A DNA stretch of 50,686 bases, from the NCBI GenBank assembly GCA_003223115.1, contig QHXW01000457.1, positions 1 to 50,686 of the forward strand, in the 5' to 3' direction. Shown piece after piece: positions 3,862 through 47,657 of the stretch. The stretch comes from Acidobacteriota bacterium (GTDB lineage Bacteria; Acidobacteriota; Terriglobia; Bryobacterales; Bryobacteraceae). Within the stretch, counting starts at the first letter, position 1. Every line of letters begins with the position of its first letter. The notes below the pieces were generated by a model. The model made no database searches. It saw nothing but the letters and a program-made list of their open reading frames with translations, and had not been told where the DNA came from. The position numbers and the translations under genes are program-made.

Positions 3862-4710
3862 ATGCCCTCGCTACCATTAGTGAACCTATTTCAACGCGAT
3901 GGTTTCTGCGTGGTTGAGGGCTTTCTCGACCGGAACGAAGTCGCTGACTTCCTGAAATCAATCGAACGGATTTGTACGGGCGCGACGGTTGAACATCACG
4001 ACGCGACGCGCCTGGAAATGGAGCCCGATCAGTGCCGCGAGGGCAACCGCGTCCGCCGGATCTACGAGCCCTGCACGCACTATCCGGCATTTCGCGCTTT
4101 GTCCGACTCGAAGAAATTGCTGGACAGCCTGGCGCAGTTATTGGGCGAGAACCTGCTGTTCCACTACAGCAAGATCAACATGAAACCGCCCGAGGTGGGC
4201 TCGGTGGTGGAGTGGCATCAGGATCTTGCGTATTATCCGCTCACCAATACGGACTCCCTCGCTGTTCTGTTCTACCTGGACGATGCTGACCGGACCAATG
4301 GTTGTTTGCAGGTGATTCCCGGAGTCCACAAAAACGGCATCGTGAACCATAGCCGCGACGGCTTCTTTCGAGGGCAGATCACGGAGCCGGTCGATACTTC
4401 AAAAGCCATCGCCATCGAAGGTGTCGCGGGATCGGCGATCTTCCTGCATGGAATGACGCCGCATGCTTCGGCGCCCAATACCTCCTCGCACGCTCGCCGA
4501 ACGCTGATTCTGGGGTACCGTGCGGCGGACGCCTATCCGATTTATGCCGGAGAAACCACCCTGCACGCGGAGCGCCACGTACGCCTGGTTCGCGGCGAAC
4601 GTTCGCCACTGGCACGGTTTGGAACGCAAGCCATGCCAATTCCCCGATTCCGGGACGTACCGAAATCTCTTTACGAGTTGCAGCGGCGATTCCGGGAGGA
4701 GCAGAGTTAG
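3862..4710 (+). CDS. PhyH-family Fe(II)/2-oxoglutarate dioxygenase
   Basis: A protein of 282 residues, the usual length for the phytanoyl-CoA dioxygenase family. Members hydroxylate small organic substrates using iron, O2 and 2-oxoglutarate. Family features are the N-terminal FQRDGFCVVEGFL, the iron-binding WHQD (His119, Asp121), the distal His201 in HGMTPHAS and a basic Arg pair (ARRTL, 212-213) suited to 2-oxoglutarate. All iron ligands are present, so it is probably active. It sits 12 bases after the FG-GAP gene and runs towards the convergent hydrolase gene. A second PhyH gene lies at 36.4 kb and is clearly different in sequence. The substrate is unknown. Confidence 0.9.
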   Translation: MPSLPLVNLFQRDGFCVVEGFLDRNEVADFLKSIERICTGATVEHHDATRLEMEPDQCREGNRVRRIYEPCTHYPAFRALSDSKKLLDSLAQLLGENLLFHYSKINMKPPEVGSVVEWHQDLAYYPLTNTDSLAVLFYLDDADRTNGCLQVIPGVHKNGIVNHSRDGFFRGQITEPVDTSKAIAIEGVAGSAIFLHGMTPHASAPNTSSHARRTLILGYRAADAYPIYAGETTLHAERHVRLVRGERSPLARFGTQAMPIPRFRDVPKSLYELQRRFREEQS

Positions 4711-15998: not shown

Positions 15999-17823
15999 TT
16001 GGGTCATTGTGGCGCTATATTGCGGCGCGCTGATCCTGGTCGCCTGGAAGTTTCACCGCCGTGCGGCCCGCAGCGTGGACTCGTTTTTTGTCGCAGATCG
16101 GAAGCTGCCCTGGTGGATCATCGGCCTTTCAGATACCGCGGCTTATACGGGGGGCGGGCAGGCGTTCCTGATGGTGTTCTTCCTCGGGGGATTCAGCGGA
16201 TTCTGGCTCATGGGTTGGGTCAGTTGGGTGCTCTGGATGCCTCTCGTAGCAGTAGTGTGGGCGAAGATGTGGCGCCGGCTGGGCGTAGTTACTACGGGCG
16301 AGCTCATCGAAAGGCGCTACGGAGGACGCACCGCGCGCATATTTCGCAAAGTCTTCGCAGTTTATGCTTGTACCGCCTGGGGTCTGACGTTGCTCGCGTA
16401 TGGGGCGGCGTGGATGGCAGCTTCCCTCGGTCCGCTGCTGGGGTGGCCGGGCGGACGCGTACTGCTGGTATTCGGCGCCATCACTCTGGCCTATACGCTG
16501 GTCTCCGGCCTGTTCGGCGTGGCATACAATGACGCGCTGCAGTTTGTCCTGGTCATGGCCGGCAACGGCATCTTCGGGTCCGTGCTCCTGGCCAAAGCCG
16601 GCGGACTGACGCGCGCTTGGTGTCAAATCACAGCTTTGCGCGGGCCGGATTTCCTGAACCCTAGTCCGGCAGCCGGGAATATCGGCGCCATTTCATTGGC
16701 AGCCCTATGCCTGCAAGGACTGTTCTTTGCGGGTTCTCCGTACGCCGGTGAGGGTTGGACGGCCCAACGCTACATGGCGGCCAAAAACGAATTTCATGCT
16801 GTCATGGGACAAGTGCTCAACGGAGTTCTGGCGCTGGTCGTGCGCTTGATTCCGTTCATCCTCATCGGATTGGCCGCGGCAGCGCTCTACACGCCGTCGT
16901 CTGTAGCGGTACCGGCGGAGCTTTGGGCGCAACTCGTGCTCAAACACGCGCCGGCCGGGCTATTCGGACTGCTGCTCGTCGCCTCCCTCGCCGGATACAT
17001 GGGGTCAATCTCGGCTTTCATGAATTGGGCCGCCGGCTATCTGGTGAACGATTTGTACCGTCTCAGTTTGCGCCCGAACGCGTCGGCACGTGAATATTTG
17101 CTGGTTAGCCGTCTGGCATCGGGCCTCATGTTAGTGGTCGCCGTGATTTGGGCCTGGGCCATCGATCCGAAGCAGCTAGATCGCTGGGTTCTGTTCATTA
17201 ACTCGGCGTTGGTTGTTTTTCCGCTACCGCTCGCATGGCTGAAATGGTTCTGGTGGCGCACGAACGTTTTCGGCGAGATGCTTGGGATTCTAGGCGCGTT
17301 CCCTGCCGGTTACACAGTTTGGTTTGGCTCTGATGCAGTCATTCCGAATGCGGCGCGGGCCTGGGTTCACCGGATCTGGGGCCTGAACCTCGACGGCATC
17401 GTTCCTGCCTTTGGCGACCTCAACCGTTTCCCGTTCTGGGCGGGATTCACCATCATTTTCGGGCTGGGCTGGATCGCGATCCTTGCCGCCACGCTCCTAA
17501 CGCGCCCCGAATCCATGGATGTCCTCCGCAAGTTCTACCGCGATGTCCAGCCCATCGGATTCTGGGGTCCCGTCAAGGCCGAGCTTCCCGCCGAAGAGCG
17601 CAAGTCGGTCAACGTGCGCGCTCGTGCAGAAATCATCGCCTGCTGCTGGGGTGTGTCCTGCTATTTTTCGATGGTGCTGGCTACCTTCTCAGCCATGGGC
17701 GGGCATTTTGCGCTCGCGGTTCTAACAGGCATATTGTCACTGGCGACAGGGGCGGTGTTCACGCGGGCACTGGTGCGGCCTGGTACGCCCGGATCCGGGC
17801 AATCAGCACGTTCAGCCTGCTGA
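15985..17823 (+). CDS. Sodium:solute symporter (SSS family)
   Basis: A protein of 612 residues with 12 or more hydrophobic segments. It starts with MRLIDWVIVALYCGALILV and shows the SSS features SVDSFFVADRKLPWWIIGLS, a helix-breaking GGGQAFL, and YAGEGWTAQRYMAAKNE with the Gly/Arg/Lys pattern seen in this family. I chose ATG 15985 because the upstream extension runs inside the end of the CocE gene. It imports an organic solute with Na+. Coupling to the CocE-type hydrolase suggests uptake of that enzyme's substrate or product. Confidence 0.92.
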   Translation: MRLIDWVIVALYCGALILVAWKFHRRAARSVDSFFVADRKLPWWIIGLSDTAAYTGGGQAFLMVFFLGGFSGFWLMGWVSWVLWMPLVAVVWAKMWRRLGVVTTGELIERRYGGRTARIFRKVFAVYACTAWGLTLLAYGAAWMAASLGPLLGWPGGRVLLVFGAITLAYTLVSGLFGVAYNDALQFVLVMAGNGIFGSVLLAKAGGLTRAWCQITALRGPDFLNPSPAAGNIGAISLAALCLQGLFFAGSPYAGEGWTAQRYMAAKNEFHAVMGQVLNGVLALVVRLIPFILIGLAAAALYTPSSVAVPAELWAQLVLKHAPAGLFGLLLVASLAGYMGSISAFMNWAAGYLVNDLYRLSLRPNASAREYLLVSRLASGLMLVVAVIWAWAIDPKQLDRWVLFINSALVVFPLPLAWLKWFWWRTNVFGEMLGILGAFPAGYTVWFGSDAVIPNAARAWVHRIWGLNLDGIVPAFGDLNRFPFWAGFTIIFGLGWIAILAATLLTRPESMDVLRKFYRDVQPIGFWGPVKAELPAEERKSVNVRARAEIIACCWGVSCYFSMVLATFSAMGGHFALAVLTGILSLATGAVFTRALVRPGTPGSGQSARSAC

Positions 17824-17940
17824 ACACTTCGTTGCGGGCTCAGCAGACAGATCTTGCCTCTGAATCGAACCGCTATCTTGTAAACTACCGCTAGGAGAGC
17901 GTTTCCGCCAAATGCCCCGGCCCGATCTTGCCGCCGCCCG

Positions 17941-18411
17941 TGGCATGCTTATGCTGCTACCGATGAATTTCGCGAAGGCCGCCATCGGCCGGCCGTCGGA
18001 CAACATGAAACCATCGTCCAGTGGAACGGAACATTTCTCATGAGCGAGCTCGCGCAACCCGGCACTGATGTACGTGACCGCTGGTTCGCACCGGCAGCTG
18101 GCGCTGCCATGCAATTGTTCGGCACTGACTGGGTCCATACCCAAACGCGTTGGTTCGAGCCCGGTAAACGGATCGTGGTCCGCAACGCCCCCACTTTTTT
18201 CGGCAAGATTTCTTTAGAAACCGAGGGTCACCTTCCGGCGTTCGAGCTCGCGTCACACGGCCGTCCGGCTTTCACGCCCGGGCGGTCATTCTCCGGATGC
18301 CGCGTCCCCTGCGCAGCTTCTCAATCGGCGGCCGTCGTGGAGCAATTTCAGCGGAGAAGAGATCATGCTGCCTGACGGGCAATCCCTCGAGATCGTGGCC
18401 ACGTTCCTCTG
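17941..18411 (+). pseudogene. Frameshifted C-terminal remnant of a large protein, copy 1
   Basis: Three reading frames read on in turn. The first runs to about 18280 (DEFREGRHRP, ETIVQWNGTFLMSELAQ, APTFFGKISLETEGHLP). The second covers about 18287-18330 (VILRMPRPLRSFS). The third runs to the TGA at 18411 (SWSNFSGEEIMLPDG, SLEIVATFL). There is no plausible start. The segment RIVVRNAPTFFGKIS is clearly related to RIDVQRAPTYFGQVS in the remnant at 32.3-32.9 kb. Both look like the C-terminus of a long acidobacterial protein of unknown, possibly sugar-active, function. Confidence 0.65.
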
Positions 18412-18421
18412 AGGTGAATGA

Positions 18422-19204
18422 ATGGCCAGACGAAAACTAGAGGGCCGCATCGCTCTGATCACCGGCGCCAGCCGCGGCATCGGCCGGGCAATCGCTCGGG
18501 GATTTGCTGCTGAGGGCGCGGCGATCGCAGTGGCCGCTCGGAGTAAAGCAGAGCTGCAATCACTCGCCGCGGAGGTGGAGCAAGCCGGTGGCCAGGCGCT
18601 CGCCATACCCGCGGATCTCAGCGATGCCGCAATCCCCGCACGTGTCGTCGAACAGGTACTCGAACGTTTCCACACCATCGACATTCTGGTCAATAACGCC
18701 GGACTCGGTAGCAGTTCGCGACCCATGCCGGTGCTCTATTTCGACGATGCATTCTGGAATTTGTCGCTGGCGCTAAATCTCACTGCACCTTACCTGTTCA
18801 TCAAAGCTGTGCTGCCTGTGCTGCTGGAGAAAAAGTGGGGACGCATCATCACCATCGCCTCCATCAATGGAAAGATCGGGTCATTCCATGGGTCGGCTTA
18901 CGCGGCCTCCAAACACGGTGTCCTGGGACTCACCCGCAGCGTGGCTCTCGAAGTCGCGCGCGATGGAATCACCGTAAATGCAATCTGCCCGGGACCAGTC
19001 CGGACGGAGATGAATGACCGGCGCGTCGAATACGATGCCAAACGGCTCGGCGTGTCATTCTCCGAACTTGAATCGCGCTTGACCCCGATTGGCAGGCGCC
19101 TCGACCCCGACGAGATCGTGCCCATGGCGATCTTGCTGGCGTCGGATGAATCGGCCGCGATCACCGGTCAAGCATTCAACGTGTGTGGCGGGGTAGCAAC
19201 GTGA
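18422..19204 (+). CDS. Short-chain dehydrogenase/reductase (SDR)
   Basis: A protein of 260 residues. Cofactor motif TGASRGIG, NNAG motif, catalytic Ser147, Tyr160 and Lys164 (SAYAASK), and C-terminal ITGQAFNVCGG. Arg40 at the end of beta-2 (AVAARSK) favours NADP(H). GAGGTGA lies just before the ATG. It follows directly after a gene remnant, so its original operon partner may be lost. The 3' end is convergent with the DUF1501 gene, with 44 bases between. The substrate is unknown. Confidence 0.92.
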   Translation: MARRKLEGRIALITGASRGIGRAIARGFAAEGAAIAVAARSKAELQSLAAEVEQAGGQALAIPADLSDAAIPARVVEQVLERFHTIDILVNNAGLGSSSRPMPVLYFDDAFWNLSLALNLTAPYLFIKAVLPVLLEKKWGRIITIASINGKIGSFHGSAYAASKHGVLGLTRSVALEVARDGITVNAICPGPVRTEMNDRRVEYDAKRLGVSFSELESRLTPIGRRLDPDEIVPMAILLASDESAAITGQAFNVCGGVAT

Positions 19205-36418: not shown

Positions 36419-37267
36419 TTGGCAAACAACAGCGGAGCAACGCAGACCAGTGATCAGAGAGCCCTGGCGCTCGAATTTCACAAGCGCGGATTTCTGATCA
36501 TCCCCAACGCCCTTTCCGCTATCCAGGTATCGGAGTTGAACCGGGTAGTGGACCGCGACCTTGAGAAACACGGCGACGAGTGGGTCACATTCGATGAATC
36601 GCTGATGGAGACACCCGATGTCATTTCACGCACCGACAAATTCGATTTCACTATCGAGAACTCGGTCACCCTCGGACTCCTACGCAGCTTCATCGGCGAG
36701 TTGATCACGTTCGAAGAATTCGAAATCATCATTCGCAATCCGACAGCCAAGTCACACGACATCAAGTCGTGGCACCGGGACGCCACGCGAGACTATAACC
36801 GGCGCATGGAAATAGAGTATGTCTCGCTTGTGTATTACTTGACCGATGTAACGGAGAGCGACCATTGCCTCAGTATCATTCCTGGAAGTCATTACCGACG
36901 GGTCGATCTGAACCCCCTGGACGTGAGCCCCGGCTCTGAATTCGACGTGATCGGACCCGCTGGAACCGCGGTCATTTTCCACGGTCGTTGCATTCATGCG
37001 GGAAAACTCAAGCCACACTCCCGTCAAAGGCGAACCCTGCACGTTTATTTTGCCCGCAGCGATCAGCACAGATACTCCGAGTGGACGGAAATACCCGAGC
37101 GTCTGTACAAGAAGAACGACGTGCGCCTGCCGCCTTTGCTCTACTCGAAGTGGAACCCGGCAGCGGTGTTCGAAGGAGTCGGCAAGAAGCCACGAGACCT
37201 GCCCGCGTCGATGTCGACGGCAGAAATGATCCGGGAAGTGCAGCGTCGGGCTAACCGGGTCGCGTAG
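36419..37267 (+). CDS. PhyH-family Fe(II)/2-oxoglutarate dioxygenase
   Basis: A protein of 282 residues with a TTG start preceded by a GGCGG-like site. Family features are FHKRGFLIIPNALS, the iron-binding KSWHRD (His119, Asp121), IPGSHYRR, FHGRCIHAGK (His193) and the Arg pair RQRRTLHVYF (204-205) for 2-oxoglutarate. All ligands are intact. It is weakly similar to the PhyH protein at 3.9 kb. The stop overlaps by 17 bases, tail to tail, with the PLP-enzyme gene on the other strand. The substrate is unknown. Confidence 0.88.
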   Translation: MANNSGATQTSDQRALALEFHKRGFLIIPNALSAIQVSELNRVVDRDLEKHGDEWVTFDESLMETPDVISRTDKFDFTIENSVTLGLLRSFIGELITFEEFEIIIRNPTAKSHDIKSWHRDATRDYNRRMEIEYVSLVYYLTDVTESDHCLSIIPGSHYRRVDLNPLDVSPGSEFDVIGPAGTAVIFHGRCIHAGKLKPHSRQRRTLHVYFARSDQHRYSEWTEIPERLYKKNDVRLPPLLYSKWNPAAVFEGVGKKPRDLPASMSTAEMIREVQRRANRVA

Positions 37268-38483
37268 CTGCAGGAGTTTTGGCTAGAGCGGCCGCTCGCT
37301 CAGTGGCTTCGAGCACTGTACGCAGCCGCCGTGGGATCACGGTCGCCTCTCCCGGCCGCAAAGCTTCCGGGAAAAAAACAATTTCGCCCGCGTCCGCGAA
37401 CTTTTCAAACACGCATATGGGTGGGTCGCCATTTTGCAATGCGTTGATCACGCCATGGGCATCCATTCCCGCGGTGGCCGCGTCGACACTCACGGTCAGG
37501 CCCGGCACTTCCTTTCCGCTTGGTTGCGGATATACGAGGCGCGCAGAAAGTCCTGGCACGCCCTTGATCCCTGCTGCAATGCATTCCAGATCCGCAGTCC
37601 AGCGAGCGCGCTCCGCCACAAAATCACGCTTCTGATATAACTCGAGCGCGGTCACCAGGCCCGCAATCTCCTCCTTCCCGACTTTGAAGCCGCGCCCAAT
37701 CCCGTGATGTGGCGGCCCCGCCAGGGTTCCGTTCTCGATGAGGGCGCGCAGCGGCCATGTTTGCGGGAACACGTCCATATCCTGGTGCTGCAGCGCCGCC
37801 GACATGATGAGGTCACGGCGGCCGCAAAGGATGCCAGTAGCCTGTGGTCCTTGTATATGTTTGCCCCCGCTGAAGGCCACCAGGTCCGCACCCGCGCTGA
37901 TGAACGCATTCAAGTTGAATGCCGGAGGCATTTCCGCCGCTGCATCCACCAGTACAGGAAGGCTGAAGCGATGCGCAATTTCCACGTATTCACCTAGCGA
38001 GAGTACACCCTGACTCACGCCCGCCTGGTAGTACATAGCGGCAGTCCGGTTCGTGATAGCGGATGCCACTTCGTAGCCAAAAGTGTAATAACCAAATCCG
38101 ACTTCAACGAATCTCGCCCCGCTCGCGCGTACCGCGTGATCATAATCGTTGCGATGCGCGCGATGGACGATGAACTCGTCCGGCATCCCACTGGTATCGG
38201 GCAGCCGGTTCATGCGATTCACATCCAAGCCCGCCAGACATGCCGCAGCGCCCAATGTGAGGCCCGCGGCAGCGCCACTAGTTACGATTCCGGCCTCTGC
38301 GCCTGTGGCCCGCGCGAGCACATCACTTGCGGCAGACTGCAGCTCATCCATGCGCACGCAACACTCCGCTGCTTGCGACATAGCTTCCAGCACCTCCCGA
38401 GGCAGCGCGCAGCCGCCAGCTTTGGTGCTGAAGCTACGAGCGTTGATCAGCGGCCGAACGCCGAGTTTTTCGTAAATGTGCAC
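37251..38483 (-). CDS. SelA/DgaE-like PLP-dependent enzyme
   Basis: A protein of 410 residues. MHIYEKLGVRPLINARSFST, IVTSGAAAGLTLGAAACLAG, VLVDAAAEMPP (Asp180 for the pyridine nitrogen) and VAFSGGKHIQGPQATGIL (Lys208 for the Schiff base) are the fold-type I signature of the selenocysteine synthase-like group. Stand-alone catabolic members include D-glucosaminate-6-phosphate ammonia-lyase (DgaE), which acts on amino-sugar acids. That role fits the neighbours better than selenocysteine synthesis; no selB, selD or tRNA-Sec is seen. It follows the phosphotriesterase-like gene by 6 bases, so they form an operon. Confidence 0.85.
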   Translation of the reverse strand: MHIYEKLGVRPLINARSFSTKAGGCALPREVLEAMSQAAECCVRMDELQSAASDVLARATGAEAGIVTSGAAAGLTLGAAACLAGLDVNRMNRLPDTSGMPDEFIVHRAHRNDYDHAVRASGARFVEVGFGYYTFGYEVASAITNRTAAMYYQAGVSQGVLSLGEYVEIAHRFSLPVLVDAAAEMPPAFNLNAFISAGADLVAFSGGKHIQGPQATGILCGRRDLIMSAALQHQDMDVFPQTWPLRALIENGTLAGPPHHGIGRGFKVGKEEIAGLVTALELYQKRDFVAERARWTADLECIAAGIKGVPGLSARLVYPQPSGKEVPGLTVSVDAATAGMDAHGVINALQNGDPPICVFEKFADAGEIVFFPEALRPGEATVIPRRLRTVLEATERAAALAKTPAATRPG

Positions 38484-38489
38484 TTATCG

Positions 38490-39452
38490 TTACTCCTGAG
38501 ACATCGATGTCGACGCCTCTGCATGCGAATCGTCCGGGATGTCCAGCATGCGCGCCGGATTCGCGATGGTCATCTGAAAGATCGCTTCCTCTCGAATGCC
38601 ATTGGCCCGTAGTAACGGTAGAAAGCAGCGCGGCACGTGAGCGTAGCCCTTGCCGCCATATGCGGCAAGATGGCTCTTCTGACAGATATCACCGCCGAGA
38701 ACGACCTGCGCCAGGAATCCTTCCGCGATCAGATGCGACACGTTGCGCATGCGGACTTCATCGGGCGGGTAACCGTTGCCAACATAGCCGATATTGTCAA
38801 CACTGACGAATACACCTTCTCGGCCGATTCGCAGCAACTCCTTCGTATCGTGCCGGTCACCAAGATGGCTGATCGCAATTCGGTTGGGCGGCACATTTTC
38901 TTCCCTGAGCAGCGCGATCTGTTCCATCGCGAGTTCGCCGAAATGCGTGGTGTGCGTCATCACGCATGCGCCGGTCCGCCGGTGCGCCCTCGCCGCCGCA
39001 CGAAATACTCGTTCTTCGGCCGGCGTAATGTACTTGCGTTCGGTCCCGATCTCGCCGATGATGCCGGCCCGGACGTCGGTACCGTCGGCGCCCCGCATGA
39101 TGTCGGTGACGATCAGATCTGCAAGACCATTCGTATCGCGCTCATAAACGTACGCAGGATATACGCGTTCGCGGTACCAGCCCGCACCCATGATGATCCG
39201 AACACCTGCGGCCTCCGAGATGCGGCGCAACGCAGCCGGATTACGGCCCAACCCACCGCTCGTGGCATCCACCAAGCTGCCGCCGCCGGCCAGCCGATAT
39301 TCGGCAAGTTCACGGATCGCCAGGCATTCGTCGTCAAGGATCGCATCATAGCTTCGAGTCAGATTCCACAGGTCGATCAACAGGTGCTCGTGTGAAAGCG
39401 TGTATCCGGCTTGCGAAGCTGGAATCGGTCCTGTGACTGTGACTATGGGCAT
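38490..39452 (-). CDS. Phosphotriesterase-family (lactonase-like) metallohydrolase
   Basis: 320 residues from ATG 39452 (MPIVTVTGPIPASQAGYTLS); an upstream extension to 39506 looks non-coding. Metal ligands are His21 and His23 (LSHEHLLIDL). Further family segments are LVDATSGGLGRNPAALRRIS, IIGEIGTERKYITPAEERVF, VMTHTTHFG, ISHLGDRHD and VVLGGDICQKSHL. Relatives hydrolyse lactones or phosphotriesters. With DgaE-like and Gfo/Idh neighbours, sugar-lactone hydrolysis is plausible but unproven. It is divergent from the Gfo/Idh gene. Confidence 0.87.
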   Translation of the reverse strand: MPIVTVTGPIPASQAGYTLSHEHLLIDLWNLTRSYDAILDDECLAIRELAEYRLAGGGSLVDATSGGLGRNPAALRRISEAAGVRIIMGAGWYRERVYPAYVYERDTNGLADLIVTDIMRGADGTDVRAGIIGEIGTERKYITPAEERVFRAAARAHRRTGACVMTHTTHFGELAMEQIALLREENVPPNRIAISHLGDRHDTKELLRIGREGVFVSVDNIGYVGNGYPPDEVRMRNVSHLIAEGFLAQVVLGGDICQKSHLAAYGGKGYAHVPRCFLPLLRANGIREEAIFQMTIANPARMLDIPDDSHAEASTSMSQE

Positions 39453-39501
39453 GATGCGCGATCGCGTATCGAATTTCCATATAATACAATTGCTCGCGCC
39501 G

Positions 39502-39515
39502 GCCATGATACTGGT
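39502..39515. promoter_or_regulatory. Operator-like near-palindrome, site 6
   Basis: GCCATGATACTGGT matches the consensus at 9 of 12 fixed positions. It lies between the divergent phosphotriesterase-like and Gfo/Idh genes. On the minus strand a -10-like TATTAT (39484-39479) lies just downstream, so the site would overlap the -35. It is the weakest of the six sites. Confidence 0.33.
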
Positions 39516-39580
39516 CTCGTTCGTACTCTCGCCTCATTACGTTGCACAATGGGTTGCCGCATGATGCGGGGAGCGCGCGA

Positions 39581-40594
39581 GTGAGCCCGCTGCTAGTGGG
39601 GGTGGTCGGCTACGGCTATACCGGAAAGATTCACACGCAATCCCTGCTCGCGGAGCCGGGTGCACGGTTGACCGCGGTCGCCGATTCACAACCGGAGCGA
39701 CTTGAAAATCTGCCTCCAGGCGTCCGGGACTACGCGAATTATGAGGACCTCCTCAGAAGCGAGGTCGACGCGGTCAGCATATGCCTTCCAACCTATTTGC
39801 ATTGCAAGGTGGCTCTCGAGGCGCTCGAGTGCGGCAAGCATGTGCTGGTCGAGAAGCCGATCGCTGTCAATGTGGAAGAGGCGGAACGTATGCTGCGGGC
39901 GGCCAGGGACGCTGGTCGGGTGCTGTACGTCGGCATGACGCACCGCTTTTACCCCGAGCTTCGAGAAGCGAAAAAGCTGATCGACGACGGCGCCATCGGA
40001 GATATCGTCGCCTGCAATGACTGCGCCCTCGAGCATCTCGGATTTCTGGACCTCCCGCCGTGGTACTTCGAGAGCCGGTTCGCCGGCGGAGGCGCAGCCC
40101 TCACGTCAGGCATCCACCTGGTTGACCGGCTGCGTTGGTTCACCGGCGATGAGGTGCAGGCCGTCGCGGGATCGGCCGCGAATCCCTTCTTCGGATCTGA
40201 CGTCGAGGATGCCGCCCAGATGTTTCTTCGTTTCAAGCGGGGGATTTCCGCGGAGATCACGCTGGCGTTCATGCGCGAATCGCATCCGCTGGTCTGCGAT
40301 CTGCAGGTGATTGGCAGTCGCGGCACAATTGTGGTCCACACCTGGCGTGGATACGAGTTGTGGAACGCATCGGGTCACCGGGAAAAGATAATTTATACCG
40401 ATGAGCCGCATGTCGCCAAAGTGCAGGTCGGCATCGGAGGGGAAATCGCCGAGTTTTGTTCCAGCATCGTCTCGGGCCGCTTGCCTTGGCCTTCGGCTGA
40501 AGAGAGCACACGAGCGCTTACGATCGTTATGGCGTTCTACCGCGCCGCTAAGAACGGAAAAATGATTGACCTCGGAGACCTGAATGCCGTTTGA
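39581..40594 (+). CDS. Gfo/Idh/MocA-family oxidoreductase
   Basis: 337 residues from GTG 39581, which has GGGGAG 7 bases upstream; a TTG at 39542 is the alternative. The N-terminal Rossmann motif VGVVGYGYTGKIHTQSLL and the catalytic Lys region CGKHVLVEKPIAVN are clear. The C-terminal beta-sheet domain includes LTSGIHLVDRLRWFTGDEV. These enzymes oxidise or reduce sugars and inositols with NAD(P). Its end overlaps the amidohydrolase gene by 11 bases, so the two are co-transcribed. Confidence 0.9.
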   Translation: MSPLLVGVVGYGYTGKIHTQSLLAEPGARLTAVADSQPERLENLPPGVRDYANYEDLLRSEVDAVSICLPTYLHCKVALEALECGKHVLVEKPIAVNVEEAERMLRAARDAGRVLYVGMTHRFYPELREAKKLIDDGAIGDIVACNDCALEHLGFLDLPPWYFESRFAGGGAALTSGIHLVDRLRWFTGDEVQAVAGSAANPFFGSDVEDAAQMFLRFKRGISAEITLAFMRESHPLVCDLQVIGSRGTIVVHTWRGYELWNASGHREKIIYTDEPHVAKVQVGIGGEIAEFCSSIVSGRLPWPSAEESTRALTIVMAFYRAAKNGKMIDLGDLNAV

Positions 40595-41762
40595 CGTGTT
40601 ACTGGCCGGCGCGCAAGTGATCGACCCGGCGCAATCGCTCAATCAACTGGCCGACGTTGGCATCACCGGCGGCCGCATTGCCCAGGTCGGGCCCAACCTC
40701 GACACGGCCGGCTGCCCGGATGTTCGGGACGTGGCCGGCAAATATGTCTGCCCCGGGCTCATCGATCTTCATGGCCACTGGTACGAGGGCAATCTTTATG
40801 GCGTGGATCCTCTGATTTGCCTCACTCACGGCGTCACCACGGCGGTGGACGCGGGCAGCACGGGCTACGCAAACTTTCCCGAATTCCGGCGGACGGTGCT
40901 GGATCGCTGTCTCACGGATATCCTCGCTTTCGTCCACATCTCCTTCATGGGGCTCCATGCTCCGTATGCGGAAGAACTCGTGGATCTGCGTTACGCGCGC
41001 CCGGAAGAAACCGCCGCCGTCATTGCGAAGCATCCGGACCGGGCCGTAGGTGTCAAACTGCGGATCGGTGCGATGACGGCAAATCACGGCTTGGCAGCCT
41101 TGGACCAGGCGCTTGCGGCCGCACGTGGTGCCCGAGTGCCCCTGATGGTGCACGTCAGTCGTGGCGCAGAAGAGTCGGAAATCCTGCGGTGCTTGCGCCC
41201 CGGCGACATCCTGACTCACTGCTTCCATGGACGTGGGAACCGCATGATCTCCGAATCGATCCTTCCGGAGGCGCTTGAGGCTCGAAGGCGTGGAGTCATT
41301 TTCGACGTGGGACACGGCTGTGGCAGCTTCTCCTGGGACACCGCCCGCAAGGCGTTCGAACAGCACTTTTATCCGGATACGATCAGCACCGACCTCCACA
41401 GGTACTCGGCGCCGGAACCGCTCTGCGTCTCGCTGCCGCAGGTAATGTCGCAAATGCTTTGTCTCGGGATGAGCCTTGAGGACGTAATTTTGAAGACGAC
41501 CGCCGTCCCGGCGCGCGTCTTGCACAGGGAACAGCAGATCGGCACTCTGGCTCCGGGCACCCAGGCGGACGTCCTCGTCTTTGATCTCGAGTCCGGCGAC
41601 TTCTCTTTTGCCGACACCCATCTGAAAGTGCGCCAGGGCAACAGGAGAATCGTTCCCCACCTGGCAATCAAGGCCGGTCAGGTTCATAACCCAGGCTCAA
41701 TCCCGATAAAACTTCGGGACCTATACGAGTCGGATATGGAAGTATTCCGGGCCATAGGTTGA
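40584..41762 (+). CDS. Amidohydrolase/deacetylase-family metallohydrolase (dihydroorotase-like)
   Basis: A protein of 392 residues. The N-terminal beta-sandwich starts FDVLLAGAQVIDP. Metal ligands are His63 and His65 (PGLIDLHGHWYEG), probable carboxylated Lys158 (AVGVKLRIGA), and histidines in LMVHVSRG and ILTHCFHG; FDVGHGCG gives a further ligand region. The C-terminus closes the sandwich (IGTLAPGTQADVLVFDLESG). The pattern matches amidohydrolases annotated as deacetylases or D-aminoacylase-like. Overlap with the Gfo/Idh gene implies one pathway. The substrate is unknown. Confidence 0.88.
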   Translation: MPFDVLLAGAQVIDPAQSLNQLADVGITGGRIAQVGPNLDTAGCPDVRDVAGKYVCPGLIDLHGHWYEGNLYGVDPLICLTHGVTTAVDAGSTGYANFPEFRRTVLDRCLTDILAFVHISFMGLHAPYAEELVDLRYARPEETAAVIAKHPDRAVGVKLRIGAMTANHGLAALDQALAAARGARVPLMVHVSRGAEESEILRCLRPGDILTHCFHGRGNRMISESILPEALEARRRGVIFDVGHGCGSFSWDTARKAFEQHFYPDTISTDLHRYSAPEPLCVSLPQVMSQMLCLGMSLEDVILKTTAVPARVLHREQQIGTLAPGTQADVLVFDLESGDFSFADTHLKVRQGNRRIVPHLAIKAGQVHNPGSIPIKLRDLYESDMEVFRAIG

Positions 41763-41817
41763 CTGCGGGTGCGGCTCGAAACGGCGGCCCAGGCAGCAAA
41801 CATGAGACGGTGCCAGG

Positions 41818-41991
41818 CCGCACGTCATAACCGAATTCGCCCGGGTTGAGGTCTTGGGTATCGAAGAGCACTACGGGAATTCCAGCCTCGAATGTAGAGT
41901 CGGCCTTAACCGGGACGGCCGTCAGCTTGCCGTCCGGCGCGTGGTAGAGCAGTTCTTTGCCGTCGCGCCGCCACCGCGGTTGATCGCCGTC
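41818..41991 (-). pseudogene. TolB/PD40-like tail of a Ser/Thr-kinase-type gene, remnant
   Basis: The stretch DGDQPRWRRDGKELLYHAPD, then KLTAVPVKADSTFEAGIPVV and FGYDV, is the typical last segment of acidobacterial protein kinases that carry WD40/TolB-like propellers. Upstream and downstream sequence in this frame is not protein-like and there is no kinase domain nearby, so only about 60 codons remain. Confidence 0.55.
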
Positions 41992-42373
41992 TCGCGTCGG
42001 AGATCCCCGAACTAACTTAACTAAAGTACTTCGTCGCTGGAGTCCAGCACGATTACGAAGGTAGCCGCCGCAGTAGAACAGCATTGGAGCAATGGACAAG
42101 TCGAAGGGCAAGTCCACCGCCTCAAGCTCTTAAAACGGCTGATGTACGGCCGTGGCGGGTTGCTTTTGTGCCGACGTGTACTGCCCTTTCGACCCCAGCC
42201 TTCTCAGCGCTCTCCGTGAACCTAACCTCCACCAAAAGTGCGGAAGACCCGAAGAAAGGAAGCCTGACAAGGGGACACTAAGCACCTCTATAACGGAGCA
42301 CCTCATTGAAGGATTGGCCGGCATAAAAGGACTTCACGTTCCTTTTGAGCTTTCGACTGTCTACTCACGATAG
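41992..42373. other. Non-coding stretch among gene remnants
   Basis: No protein-like frame is found. AAAGTACTT at about 42016 matches half of the palindrome at 12790-12810. Close by, CTGGA and TCCAG arms separated by one base (about 42031-42041) form a small inverted repeat. No promoter is convincing. Confidence 0.35.
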
Positions 42374-43249: not shown

Positions 43250-43516
43250 ACCTCGTGCGAGCCGTTGGAGGGGACGTGCTGCTTTTCTCAAGCGGACACT
43301 TCATTCGCGTGTTAGCGGCGCGCTGTATCGAACTCGAACCATCAGTACATAGCATGTCTTTCCTCCTGAGCACAGCGAGCCTGAGTGCGGTGGGATATGA
43401 ACACGACCTTTCCCGGCCGGTAATCCGGTTGTGGAATGATACTCATCATGTCCGCACGCCGCAAGATCGGACCTGATTGTGCATCGACATTTCATTTTCA
43501 CTATCGAGAAAACATA

Positions 43517-45805
43517 ATGGGCACAAAAAATGTGATGGAGCCTCTGGCGCCAACGAAATCAAAGAATGTTTCAAAGATCCTTGACCAATACGGCCGTGCC
43601 CCGATTCATCTCGCTGGCACGGACAACGGCTTGTACGAACGCCATCTCCTCTTTGACAACGTCATTGATCTAGCTGGCGCCGACGCGCGTGATCGTCTTG
43701 AGGCCTTCGCCCGGTCGGTTCAGGACGTCCTTTCCCAACGGTGGACCCGTACGGAGAGCACGTATGAGAGGGAGAACCCGAAACGTGTCTATTACCTCTC
43801 GATGGAGTTTCTCATCGGCCGATCGTTCGCCAATAATGTGACGAATCTGCTGCTCGACCCTCTGGCGAGCGAATCCGTCCGGCAGGAGAACATCAACTGG
43901 GCCGAGCTACTCGAGCAGGAGCCTGACGCCGCGCTGGGCAATGGCGGGCTCGGCCGCTTAGCAGCCTGCTTCCTCGAGTCAATGGCCACGATGCAACTCC
44001 CGGCCATGAGCTACGGTTTGCGATACGAATACGGAATCTTCAAACAATTGATCCAGGACGGTTGGCAACGGGAGCAGCCGGACAACTGGCTCCGCCGGCA
44101 GGACCCTTGGGAAGTCGCTCGCCCGCATGAAAAAGTGGAAGTGAAACTGAACTGCTCGTTCGTGATAAGTGGTGGAGCCTTGCTCCCCGATAGACCCTCC
44201 AGCCTGATCGGGATCCCGTTCGATCGGCCCGTGGTGAGCTACGGCGGCAAAACCATAAATACTCTCCGGCTATGGGCCGCATCGGCGCCCGAGTTCTTTG
44301 ATTTTCAGGCATTCAGCCACGGCGACTTCGTCGGCGCGGTGGCCGAGACTCTCGAAGCGGAATCTCTCACACGAGTACTCTATCCAGACGATTCGACCAG
44401 CATGGGGCAGGGTTTGCGCTTCGTGCAGGAATATTTTCTCGTCGCCTGCTCGCTGGCCGATCTGGTGCGGCGTTTCCGGCGCATCAATGCGGATTGGAAC
44501 GCGTTTCCCGAGCAAGTTGCTATTCAACTTAACGACACGCATCCAACTATGGCGATCCCCGAGTTAATGCGGATCCTGCTGGACGACGAGCACCTAAGGT
44601 GGGATGAGGCATGGGATATCACGCGGAGAACTCTAGCGTACACCAACCACACGCTGCTACCCAAGGCGCTGGAAAAATGGCCGCTTGCGTGGTTTGAAGT
44701 GATGCTGCCGCGGCACCTTGAGATCATCTTCGAAATCAACCGCCGGCTGCTCGATTCAGTCCGGACACGGTTCCTCGGCGACGAGGGGCGGGTTCAGCGC
44801 GTGAGCCTCGTCGAAGAAGACGCTGGTCGTAAGATCCGGATGGCCAACCTGGCGATTGTTGGCTCGCACATTCACTCCAAACTGCTACGCACCACGACGG
44901 TCAAGGACCTGGCCGAGATCTTTCCTGAACGTTTCAGTAACAAAACCAACGGAGTCACACCACGACGCTGGTTGCTGCTGTCAAATACTATTACCGAGGC
45001 AATTGGCGACGATTGGATCACAGATCTCAGTCAACTGCGCAGGCGCAAGCCGCTTGCCGTCGACGCCGGATTTCGCCTCGCCTTCCGCAAAGCTAAGCGC
45101 GAAGCCAAAATGCAGTTCGCGGATTGGCTCAAATCGACGTCTGACATATCAGTAGACCCTGAGACGATCTTCGATTCCCAGGTCAAGCGCATTCACGAAT
45201 ACAAGCGGCAACTGCTGAATGCGTTGCGCATCGTAGTCGTTTACAATCGGCTGCGGCAGAATCCAGACCTGGACATCGCGCCGCGAACCTTCTTCTTCTC
45301 GGGTAAGGCCGCGCCGGCTTATCAGTTGGCTAAGCTCATCATCAAGTTCATCAATAACCTGGCTGGAACCATCGATGGCGATCCAGCGGTCCGCGGCCGC
45401 CTCAAGGTGGTATTTCTGCCTGAATATAGCGCGTCACTGGCGGAGCGCCTGATCCCGGCTTGGGATGTTTCCAACCAGATCTCAACGGCCGGGTACGAGG
45501 CCTGCGGCACAAGCAACATGAAGTTCATGATGAACGGAGCTTTGACGGTCGGCACGCGTGACGGCGCCACTATCGAGATGGCGGAACAAGCCGGCGAGGA
45601 AAACTTCTTTCTATTCGGCCTCACCGCGGAACAAGTTGTTAGCAGCCGCGCCTGGTACAACCCACATTGGCACTATGAGAACGAGCCTGAAACCCGTGCC
45701 GCGTTGGACCTGATCTTTTCCGATTATTTCAGCCGCAATGAACCGAGGGTTTTCGCTCCCTTGCGCGACACACTGTTGACGCCCGGGGATTACTATTGCA
45801 CCTAG
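43517..45805 (+). CDS. glgP: Glycogen/starch/alpha-glucan phosphorylase
   Basis: 762 residues from ATG 43517; an in-frame extension to 43436 has no homology. It removes glucose-1-phosphate from alpha-1,4-glucan using PLP. Signature parts are RVYYLSMEFLIGRSFANNV, LGNGGLGRLAACFLESMA, QLNDTHPTMAIPELMRIL, NKTNGVTPRRWLL, VKRIHEYKRQLLN and the PLP site YEACGTSNMKFMMNGALT (Lys in SNMK). The frame ends early: one base appears lost in the T-run at about 45796, giving a TAG at 45803-45805 in place of the last about 60 residues. The phosphoglucomutase gene follows, as expected for glucan breakdown. Confidence 0.9.
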   Translation: MGTKNVMEPLAPTKSKNVSKILDQYGRAPIHLAGTDNGLYERHLLFDNVIDLAGADARDRLEAFARSVQDVLSQRWTRTESTYERENPKRVYYLSMEFLIGRSFANNVTNLLLDPLASESVRQENINWAELLEQEPDAALGNGGLGRLAACFLESMATMQLPAMSYGLRYEYGIFKQLIQDGWQREQPDNWLRRQDPWEVARPHEKVEVKLNCSFVISGGALLPDRPSSLIGIPFDRPVVSYGGKTINTLRLWAASAPEFFDFQAFSHGDFVGAVAETLEAESLTRVLYPDDSTSMGQGLRFVQEYFLVACSLADLVRRFRRINADWNAFPEQVAIQLNDTHPTMAIPELMRILLDDEHLRWDEAWDITRRTLAYTNHTLLPKALEKWPLAWFEVMLPRHLEIIFEINRRLLDSVRTRFLGDEGRVQRVSLVEEDAGRKIRMANLAIVGSHIHSKLLRTTTVKDLAEIFPERFSNKTNGVTPRRWLLLSNTITEAIGDDWITDLSQLRRRKPLAVDAGFRLAFRKAKREAKMQFADWLKSTSDISVDPETIFDSQVKRIHEYKRQLLNALRIVVVYNRLRQNPDLDIAPRTFFFSGKAAPAYQLAKLIIKFINNLAGTIDGDPAVRGRLKVVFLPEYSASLAERLIPAWDVSNQISTAGYEACGTSNMKFMMNGALTVGTRDGATIEMAEQAGEENFFLFGLTAEQVVSSRAWYNPHWHYENEPETRAALDLIFSDYFSRNEPRVFAPLRDTLLTPGDYYCT

Positions 45806-45984
45806 CGGATCTGACGTCCTATGGTCAGGCGCATGAACGGCTCGGCGAGCTGTATGCGGACCCAGATGCCTGGGCACAGAAAGCCATCTTGAATGTAGCC
45901 GGCTCTGGAAAGTTCTCGAGTGACCGTACGACCGCCGAATACGCAACTGACATCTGGAGGGTGAGGCCATGTCCAGTATCGTAG
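45796..45984 (+). pseudogene. Displaced C-terminus of the glycogen phosphorylase
   Basis: In the next frame the sequence reads LHLADLTSYGQAHERLGELY, AQKAILNVAGSGKFSSDRT and EYATDIWRV, the conserved C-terminal end of bacterial phosphorylases. Adding one T in TATTGCAC would join it to the main frame. It ends 16 bases inside the phosphoglucomutase gene. Confidence 0.75.
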
Positions 45985-47657
45985 ATACACATCCAAACGC
46001 GAATATCTCGGCACTCGCCGGCCGGCCCGCCCCAAAAGAGTTGTTGGTCGACTTGGCCCGGCTTGAACGCGAGTATTTTGAGCGCCGGCCGGACGTGAGC
46101 GATCCCAACCAGATAGTCGCCTTCGGAACTAGCGGACATAGGGGCTCGCCGTTTGCCGGCACGCTCACCGAAGCGCACATTCTGGCAATCACCCAAGCGA
46201 TTTGCGACTACCGGCTCGCGCACGGTACAGATGGCCCGCTATACATGGGCAAGGACACGCACGCGCTGTCCTCGCCGGCTCAATGTACAGCGCTCGAGGT
46301 CCTGGCGGCCAACGGCGTGGAGACCATCATTCAGCCAAATAACGGTGTGACTCCAACGCCGGTTATCTCGCGGGCGATTCTCGTATACAACAGCGGCCGC
46401 AAGGAACACTTCGCCGACGGCATCGTGATTACGCCTTCGCACAACCCTCCCGAAGACGGTGGCTTCAAGTACAACCCTGTGAACGGTGGTCCGGCTGACA
46501 CGGACGTGACGCACTGGATCGAGGACCGCGCAAACGAACTGCTCAGAAACCGCAATGCCGGCGTGAAGCGCGTGGGATACAACGCCGCTCTCAGCGCCTC
46601 GACCACCCACCACGAAGACTTCGTCTTGCCCTACGTACGCGATCTGGAGAATGTGGTTGATATGGATGCGATTCGCGGCGCCGGACTCAAGCTGGGTGTA
46701 GATCCACTTGGAGGCGCTGCCCTGCCGTACTGGGAGCCAATCAACGCCATTTACCACTTGGACATTAACGTCGTAAACCCGACGTTGGATCCGACTTTCT
46801 CCTTCATGACGGTGGATCACGACGGGAAGATCCGCATGGACTGCTCCAGCCCATATGCGATGGCCCGCCTCATAGGACTCAAAGAGAAATATCAAGTAGC
46901 ATTTGCTAACGACCCGGACTCAGACCGGCACGGGATCGTGACCCCGTCTGCAGGGTTGATGAACCCGAACCATTACCTTGCGGTCGCCATCGGCTATCTG
47001 CTCACACATCGTCCCATCTGGCTGGCGAAGGCTGTGGTGGGAAAAACGGTAGTAAGCAGCAACATGATCGACAGGGTGGTGCACAAGCTCGGACGGAGGC
47101 TGTCGGAAGTGCCGGTAGGATTCAAGTGGTTCGCGCCGGGCCTCTTCGATGGCTCGTGCTGTTTTGGCGGCGAGGAGAGCGCTGGGGCCAGCTTCCTCAG
47201 GTTCGACGGCTCCGTATGGACCACCGATAAGGACGGGCCGATCATGGACCTGCTCGCAGCCGAGATCACCGCCCATACAGGCAAGGATCCGGGCGAGCAC
47301 TATCGCGAGCTGACGGCCGAGTTCGGCAAGTCGTACTACACGCGCATGGATGCGCCGGCCACTCCGGAGCAGAAGGCGAGGCTGCTGAGACTCTCGCCGG
47401 ACGCTGTTACAGAATCGAGCCTCGCGGGTGAGCCGATCATTGCCAGGTTGACCCGCGCCCCAGGAAATAACGCACCAATCGGTGGTCTGAAGGTGACGGC
47501 CGCCCACGGCTGGTTTGCGGCCCGGCCATCGGGTACCGAAAACGTCTACAAGATTTACGCGGAGAGCTTCCACAACGAAGCGCACTTGGAGGCAATCTTG
47601 GCCGCGGCCCAGGAGATCGGGAATAACGCGATGAACTCGTCGGTAGAACAAAGGTGA
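45969..47657 (+). CDS. pgm: Phosphoglucomutase, alpha-D-glucose phosphate-specific
   Basis: A protein of 562 residues, normal length. It interconverts glucose-1-phosphate and glucose-6-phosphate. Motifs: [16 protein letters not shown], the phosphoserine loop [18 protein letters not shown] (Ser158), the metal loop [11 protein letters not shown], the sugar loop [17 protein letters not shown], and the C-terminal phosphate loop [18 protein letters not shown]. All four are intact. It lies between the frameshifted phosphorylase and the broken glucanotransferase and is the only undamaged gene of this module. GGAGGGTGAGGCC precedes the ATG. Confidence 0.95.

Follow-up and report, generated by a model that had tools for sequence, protein, structure and literature searches.

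A candidate four-gene unit for the degradation of an amino sugar was analysed in a 50,686 bp stretch of DNA, here called the window, from contig QHXW01000457.1 (positions 1 to 50,686, forward strand) of the Acidobacteriota assembly GCA_003223115.1. The genome belongs to the order Bryobacterales and amounts to 9.1 Mb in 594 contigs. The unit comprises genes for a pyridoxal 5'-phosphate (PLP) enzyme, a phosphotriesterase (PTE)-like hydrolase, a Gfo/Idh/MocA-family (Gfo/Idh) dehydrogenase and an amidohydrolase. A first-pass annotation, made from the sequence alone, had described them as two divergent pairs, and this was confirmed by the coordinates, the domain matches and the same gene order in five of five genomes.

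37251..38483, minus strand: PLP enzyme gene, 410 aa; long-loop subfamily of the DgaE/SelA-like family; predicted amino-sugar-acid ammonia-lyase
38490..39461, minus strand: PTE-like metal hydrolase gene, 323 aa; predicted lactonase; nearest to Escherichia coli Php
39542..40594, plus strand: Gfo/Idh/MocA-family dehydrogenase gene, 350 aa; predicted to oxidise a sugar to a lactone
40584..41762, plus strand: amidohydrolase gene, 392 aa; EF_0837-type; predicted N-deacylase

All four open reading frames (ORFs) are intact at these coordinates. The PTE-like ORF spans 38490-39506 on the minus strand, and the ATG at 39461 is its likely start because relatives begin there. Only 6 bases lie between the PTE-like stop and the start of the PLP gene downstream of it. 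The plus-strand ORFs for the Gfo/Idh protein and the amidohydrolase share 11 bases, as expected from the earlier description of a sugar oxidoreductase joined by overlap to an amide hydrolase. An 80-base gap separates the two divergent pairs.

Families of the four proteins

In both sequence and predicted fold, the PLP protein is similar to DgaE (7lc0) and Cap15 (8t7j). It matches PF03841 (SelA) with 33 bits and TIGR01437 ('DgaE family') with 202.1 bits, under the cut-off of 385.3, and scores 211.6 bits against DgaE, for which the cut-off is 600. Its closest relative among named records is from a Bryobacteraceae metagenome-assembled genome (Acidobacteriota). Two features of the protein were located in the window.

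37860..37862, minus strand: Lys208 codon; the residue aligns with the SGxK lysine in DgaE chain 7lc0
37707..37784, minus strand: insertion of about 23-26 residues (aa 234-259), the long-loop marker, absent from DgaE, Cap15 and short paralogues

The insertion follows the PLP-lysine segment and falls partly under 50 in a model with a mean pLDDT of 72.9. The 38 aligned long-loop rows (11 clade A, 13 clade B, four clade C, nine haloarchaeal and one from Mesorhizobium) cover 13 of the 16 clade B loci fetched and nine of the 17 haloarchaeal ones; an identical row and YhfS were dropped and one long row was trimmed. In the resulting tree they split from eight insertion-free rows with support of 100/100. 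The Mesorhizobium row was placed in tree group H though it is not archaeal. Clades A and C, whose genes adjoin PTE genes, join at 87/86, under the value that earns the program's star.

Comparison of the active sites revealed that the PLP lysine is kept in all 38 long-loop rows, while residues of the DgaE protein of Salmonella (DGL) are largely lost. Residue roles were taken from the accessible part of PMC9529869, in which His-162/163, Arg-226, Arg-301, Arg-332 and Arg-346 agree with the chain numbering and the PLP lysine is Lys-217 rather than the Lys213 (SGAK) of chain 7lc0. DGL His-163 has no counterpart in any long-loop row (a gap in 38/38), and the arginines are present in two (Arg-301), none (Arg-332) and three (Arg-346) of the 38. 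All three are missing from each of the 11 clade A rows, and the window protein has Gly328, Phe359 and Glu373 in these columns. Cap15, which shares family and fold with the window enzyme, differs from it in the same way as DgaE does: both keep His-163 and all three arginines, and the insertion is absent. The short paralogues (nine rows, one a duplicate) also lack His-163 and mostly lack the arginines (Arg-301 in none, Arg-332 in four, Arg-346 in one); the loss thus extends beyond the long-loop rows. By sequence, the PLP enzyme falls outside the DgaE equivalog, in a separate long-loop subfamily. As the phosphate-site arginine cluster is missing, its substrate is probably not phosphorylated, though arginines of the insertion could replace the cluster.

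The PTE-like protein matches PF02126 over nearly the full profile with 235.6 bits (gathering threshold 22.4). Scores for PRK09875 (Php; 215 bits) and for the phospho-furanose lactonase NF045706 (80.8 bits) are under the respective cut-offs of 486 and 630. Its best match in the PDB, and thus its best solved relative, is the E. coli 'phosphotriesterase homology protein' Php, to which it is about 35% identical. The AEIG segment of Php is GEIG in the window protein; the Glu common to both presumably stands at the place of the bridging metal ligand. The protein is a predicted lactonase.

For the amidohydrolase, a match to PF01979 was accompanied by 370.5 bits for PRK09237 ('amidohydrolase/deacetylase'), half a bit below the cut-off of 371, and by 240.6 bits for TIGR03583 (cut-off 432.15). 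The protein aligns across nearly its entire length, including the whole barrel, with the solved chains 8je0, 2ogj, 8wzy and 2ics of the EF_0837/PRK09237 deacetylases. It has the HxH-Lys-His-His-Asp pattern (HGH, VKLR, MVHV, THCFHG and STDLH), whose residues we take to be metal ligands. An EF_0837-type deacetylase, a group that we take to correspond to COG3964, is therefore a better description than the earlier 'dihydroorotase-like'.

The Gfo/Idh protein matches PF01408 (101.3 bits) and, in its C-terminal domain, PF22725 (77.7 bits), both over cut-off. Among solved chains the best scores 101 bits and a DgpA2 chain is second; aldose-aldose oxidoreductase (97 bits) and glucose-fructose oxidoreductase (86 bits), which act at C1, are close behind. 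Among the family models, those for glycoside 3-dehydrogenases match as well. No clear specificity is evident from these sequence matches.

Linkage and genomic contexts

When the window proteins were used to query 257 genomes of the order, with up to seven or eight first-look candidates scored per genome (four for the GH20b-type protein described below), relatives were few. The PLP protein has relatives of at least 62% identity in seven genomes, its own included, the PTE-like protein in nine (E<=1e-70), the amidohydrolase in seven (E<=1e-90) and the Gfo/Idh protein in five (E<=1e-70). These last five (G000, the window genome; G360, G274, G280 and G202) represent four genera, and in each of them an adjacent PTE-PLP pair is present in the same divergent layout; in four of the five the amidohydrolase gene directly follows the Gfo/Idh gene. 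Co-occurrence in related genomes, which the first-pass annotation had proposed as a test of its idea, is thus found. In all nine cases the PTE gene adjoins a long-loop PLP gene. The pairing of a lactonase-like hydrolase from the PTE family with a predicted lyase therefore stands, whereas the lyase belongs to the separate subfamily and is not the DgaE that had been named. We consider it very probable that the four genes form one functional unit. Loci fetched separately were equated with genomes by equal coordinates or lengths (L003 with G360, L005 with G280, L006 with G220, L007 with G202, L011 with G024 and L012 with G269).

A re-ordered version is found in the four genomes of clade C (G239, G240, G249 and G287), where PTE, PLP and amidohydrolase genes stand in a row in every case, and the proteins are 46-47%, 41-42% and 36-38% identical to those of the window, respectively. 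For L104 the amidohydrolase is identified by a tblastn match, its row in the amidohydrolase alignment having been set aside because of a wrong reading frame. A gene of the major facilitator superfamily (MFS) type follows this operon in three of the four (L097, L103 and L104, in G239, G240 and G287, and not L096, in G249). An MFS gene where the window kind of Gfo/Idh is missing fits import of the ready-made acid or lactone. Two clade C transporters match the D-galactonate transporter model best, with 183 and 200 bits, under its cut-off of 395. Outside the order, PTE-PLP pairs were found on three contigs (L010, L011 and L043), all beside GH20b-domain proteins.

The gap between the divergent pairs is itself partly conserved.

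39472..39495, strand not assigned: 24 bases of the divergent gap that are the same in the congeneric locus L003; predicted promoter/operator

The sequence CAATATCATNNTACAA occurs exactly in the same shared gap of L004, L005 and L007, and again, with one mismatch, just before an outer-membrane receptor gene of L007. Only two further matches with up to two mismatches, in L009 and L101, were found in 1,337,416 bases of loci (duplicates included); base-shuffled loci gave two in 836,800 bases. A promoter scan of the gap found none, with 0.3 expected by chance. A gene for a GntR regulator with an FCD domain lies near the unit in L004 and has relatives in L005 and L007, and it has no match in the window at E<=1e-5. 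We infer that both window operons are co-regulated through the shared gap.

The long-loop PLP gene is also found in haloarchaea, which account for 26 of the best 30 among 227 plasmid records with a PLP match. Seventeen of the 26 were examined, with flanks of 9 kb (H1, H3, H5, H9 and H16) or 7 kb (the others), cut at record ends. Near the PLP gene are genes for RidA (11/17), a PIG-L deacetylase (10/17), glucose 1-dehydrogenase (7/17), Gfo/Idh proteins (5/17), GH18, GH20, PL8 or heparinase proteins (4/17) and D-aminoacylase (2/17). H2, H4, H7, H9, H10 and H18 form one related block and are not independent. The fullest locus, in Halosolutus gelatinilyticus, holds genes for GH18, a sugar ABC transporter, DgoD, a PIG-L deacetylase, IclR, the PLP enzyme, RidA, glucose 1-dehydrogenase and a lactonase. 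All the steps put forward for the window are matched there, but only the PLP enzyme is of the same family.

In L004 the Gfo/Idh gene is preceded by an unnamed gene, which adjoins the unit in L007. Its relatives in H6, H15 and H24 (29-33% identity, E 1e-37 to 1e-39) lie close to the PLP gene, two of them beside PIG-L, D-aminoacylase and GH20 genes. In Bryobacterales and haloarchaea alike, a family without Pfam domains occurs together with the long-loop PLP gene (L004:7682-8905, minus strand; L007:5480-6700, plus strand; L117, L122 and L125), and Pfam found no domain in three proteins, of two families, from L004 and L007.

A second long-loop clade, B (L080-L095; 45-56% identical), is present in many genomes of the order. 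Its 16 fetched loci contain no PTE match, and the GntP-family permease, in four, is the sole family besides PLP that was found in more than three. The L082 copy of this permease matches TIGR00791 with 421 bits, over the cut-off of 292.75. Three of the 16 loci have sulfatase-family genes, and a sulfated amino sugar is a possible substrate of clade B.

GH20b-domain proteins, about 800 residues long and with what looks by eye like a signal at the N-terminus, lie beside the unit in L004/L105, L007 (a contig-end fragment), L010, L011 and L043. The coordinates of four sets are as follows.

L004:3090-5471, minus strand: GH20b-domain protein
L105:9220-11601 and 16677-19034: GH20b-domain proteins
L010:97-5128: GH20b-domain protein(s)
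L011:1196-8967: GH20b-domain protein(s)

Within the order, proteins of this type (E<=1e-40) were found in three of the 257 genomes, all three among the five that carry the unit, and in two of these three they share a contig with it. Four copies were scanned and have no Pfam catalytic domain, and a sequence comparison of the L004 copy with solved chains gave nothing at E<=0.1. Its model, a poor one (mean pLDDT 59), compares best with a GH84 O-GlcNAcase (Z 15.0, root mean square deviation 10.8, 433 aligned residues), followed by GH20 (Z 13.9) and GH115 (Z 12.9). The proteins are possibly an undescribed glycoside hydrolase family. The window genome has GH20 family matches elsewhere.

Several smaller observations concern the same gene families. 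Two small amidohydrolase-like genes lie near PLP or Gfo/Idh genes in loci without the EF_0837-type amidohydrolase (L005:98-2216 and L006:8352-11203); the L006 copy of one of them matches Amidohydro_2, and L005 also has an AAA_33 kinase-like gene. In the annotation, amidohydrolase homologues on plasmids of Thermomicrobium and Mesorhizobium 113-3-3 and a PLP homologue in Mesorhizobium NZP2077 show no linkage to other genes of the unit.

Proposed route and alternatives

Chitin and cell walls supply amino sugars that make up a large reserve of nitrogen in soil. In the textbook route, N-acetylglucosamine (GlcNAc) is phosphorylated and then processed by NagA and NagB. For the window we somewhat favour a different, oxidative and non-phosphorylative route, by which the unit would degrade an N-acylated amino sugar, in the simplest case an N-acetylhexosamine. 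The Gfo/Idh protein would oxidise the sugar at C1 to a 2-acylamido aldonolactone, which the PTE-like hydrolase would open to the 2-acylamido aldonate. The amidohydrolase would then deacylate this aldonate to a 2-amino aldonate, for example D-glucosaminate, and the long-loop PLP enzyme would eliminate water and ammonia to leave a 2-keto-3-deoxy aldonate of the 2-keto-3-deoxygluconate (KDG) type for general metabolism. For a GlcNAc-type sugar the series would be lactone, N-acetylglucosaminate, glucosaminate, then KDG and ammonia. Each reaction, the order of steps, the substrate and the acyl group are our deductions from family and context. A KDG-type product could be used, as the window's genome has a member of the KDPG-type aldolase family. 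There is no NagB match in the window genome, which says little because none of 150 genomes of the order passes the cut-off (93 have weaker matches).

The earlier idea of an N-acyl amino-sugar acid as substrate thus gains from the contexts of the PLP subfamily (deacetylases, glucose 1-dehydrogenase and RidA), from the transporters and from the GH84/GH20-like proteins, while the 6-phosphate assignment that comes with DgaE is dropped. In the Salmonella dga pathway, as set out in the accessible text of PMC9529869, the phosphotransferase system (PTS) DgaABCD is followed by DgaE/DGL and DgaF. Like the reaction proposed here, that of DgaE/DGL is a PLP-dependent elimination of ammonia from a 2-amino aldonate, by an enzyme of the same family and fold with the lysine in the same position. 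Unlike the window enzyme, which has the 23-26-residue insertion and lacks the arginine cluster and His-163, DGL acts on a PTS-made 6-phosphate. No PTS gene was seen among the annotated window genes (36.4-41.8 kb), beyond which no further search was made. Without the His-163 proton donor, the product may leave the long-loop enzyme as the enamine, and this would account for the presence of RidA genes next to the archaeal ones. For the H163A mutant of DGL, random deuteration at C-3 is reported.

A closer parallel is the prediction for Natrarchaeobius, in the part of PMC12343721 available, of conversion of GlcNAc to glucosamine and glucosaminate, phosphorylation by an unknown kinase and action of a DgaE homologue, with galactonate dehydratase, glucose dehydrogenase, IclR and RutC genes in the clusters. 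As far as that text goes, this route and the H. gelatinilyticus cluster resemble the window in having a deacetylase and a sugar dehydrogenase and, in Halosolutus, a lactonase. They differ from it in the enzymes used: the place of the amidohydrolase is taken by a PIG-L or CE14 deacetylase, that of the Gfo/Idh protein by glucose 1-dehydrogenase and that of the PTE-like protein by another lactonase. The H. gelatinilyticus PLP protein is of the same subfamily and 46.9% identical to that of the window. The active-site comparison suggests that long-loop proteins do not need a kinase. The combination had been called possibly novel, and no description of the four-enzyme set was found in the literature searched, among the matches listed and with most subscription journals outside the search; the novelty is limited by the GlcNAc to glucosaminate route with non-homologous enzymes already predicted (PMC12343721, in the part available).

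Tentatively, and with somewhat less confidence than for the window itself, we propose that N-acetylhexosamines are degraded in soil Acidobacteriota and haloarchaea by a general oxidative route that needs no phosphorylation and has at its centre a long-loop PLP ammonia-lyase, which would act on free amino aldonates and release KDG. The bacteria would have recruited PTE-type lactonases, Gfo/Idh dehydrogenases and EF_0837-type deacetylases, and some of these bacteria would feed the route through an undescribed GH84-like hexosaminidase family. If a phosphate-free oxidative route exists, four under-annotated enzyme groups gain a function, the long-loop PLP subfamily gains a testable substrate, and the kinase step predicted for chitin-using natronoarchaea is put in question.

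A number of observations weigh against the route proposed for the window. The amidohydrolase gene of G280 is on a different contig, beside another Gfo/Idh gene. PLP relatives without a PTE gene occur in two of the seven genomes at 62% identity or more (G220 and G269, i.e. L006 and L012) and on contigs L008 and L009; amidohydrolase-Gfo/Idh pairs with a diverged Gfo/Idh and no PTE gene were found in L100, L101 and L102, and the Gfo/Idh and amidohydrolase genes are missing or elsewhere in some relatives. The unit is thus modular, with PTE-PLP as its more constant core. Comparison of the window genes with the 17 haloarchaeal loci gave no relative of PTE or amidohydrolase type at E<=1e-5 and Gfo/Idh matches with just 22-30% identity, and six of the seven glucose dehydrogenase loci belong to the one related block. 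The phosphate-site argument draws on manual docking reported for DGL (PMC9529869, accessible part) and on alignment. Cap15, by its title an oxygen-dependent PLP enzyme, belongs to the same family, so membership is no proof of ammonia elimination. On the glycan side, the window genome and its congener G360 have no GH20b-type protein, and those of G280 are on other contigs than the unit. The poor GH20b-type model also matches GH138 (second in Foldseek) and GH115, which are not known as hexosaminidases.

The same chemical logic might serve another compound, an N-acyl beta-hydroxy D-amino acid or aldonic acid whose lactone the PTE-like enzyme opens; acylated amino-uronic acid, N-acylated galactosaminate and a non-sugar D-amino acid are examples. 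The amidohydrolase is distantly related to D-aminoacylases, D-serine-dehydratase-like genes are present in L097 and L100, and sulfatase, PL8 or heparinase genes lie close to some homologues. We nevertheless regard this, the strongest of the alternatives, as unlikely, if worth keeping in mind, as the GH84/GH20-like and GH18 neighbours and the glucose 1-dehydrogenase genes indicate hexosamines and the transporters are of sugar-acid type. A Gfo/Idh protein acting at C3 of a glycoside (3-keto chemistry), like the UDP-GlcNAc 3-dehydrogenase or disaccharide 3-dehydrogenase families, with the other genes processing the product and the lactone step off the path, is less probable again. The best family scores, which also count among the points against C1 oxidation, are for UDP-GlcNAc 3-dehydrogenase (NF040723; 148.1 bits) and inositol 2-dehydrogenase (135 bits), in keeping with the glycoside 3-dehydrogenase matches and the second place of DgpA2. 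However, all of these family scores are far under the curated cut-offs (450 for NF040723), the two C1-acting oxidoreductases come near the best chain, and no keto-glycoside lyase was seen among the annotated window genes (36.4-41.8 kb), where no dedicated search was made.

Two further explanations seem to us very improbable. The PTE-like protein has Php as its top PDB match, and php and yhfS share one E. coli gene run, so that the PTE-like and PLP genes could be thought to resemble the unexplained yhf operon. This counterpart was rejected: YhfS and the PLP protein share only 20% identity over aligned columns, YhfS has neither the SGGK motif nor the insertion, and the PRK09875 score is less than half of its cut-off. 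We give equally little credence to adjacency by descent alone, with no joint function. Gene order can be retained among relatives, and G000 and G360 belong to one genus, but the linkage recurs in four genera with rearrangements (an extra gene in L004, and in L005 an amidohydrolase elsewhere in the genome), the operon is re-ordered in clade C, and a DNA element is conserved in the shared gap of three loci.

Surroundings of the unit in the window

The G+C content is 60-61% across the cluster (window 37000-41999) and 55-57% on either flank. With the patchy distribution of the cluster in the order, this suggests that the four genes may have been acquired horizontally. A PhyH-family gene (36419-37267) is convergent with the PLP gene, their ORF ends overlapping by 17 bases, and was excluded from the unit as no match to it was found beside the cluster in the other loci searched. 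It has a weak relative (23%) at 3889-4689 in the window. Downstream of the unit, reading of the sequence alone identified a glycogen phosphorylase-like gene (43436-45805) and a phosphoglucomutase-like gene (45969-47657).

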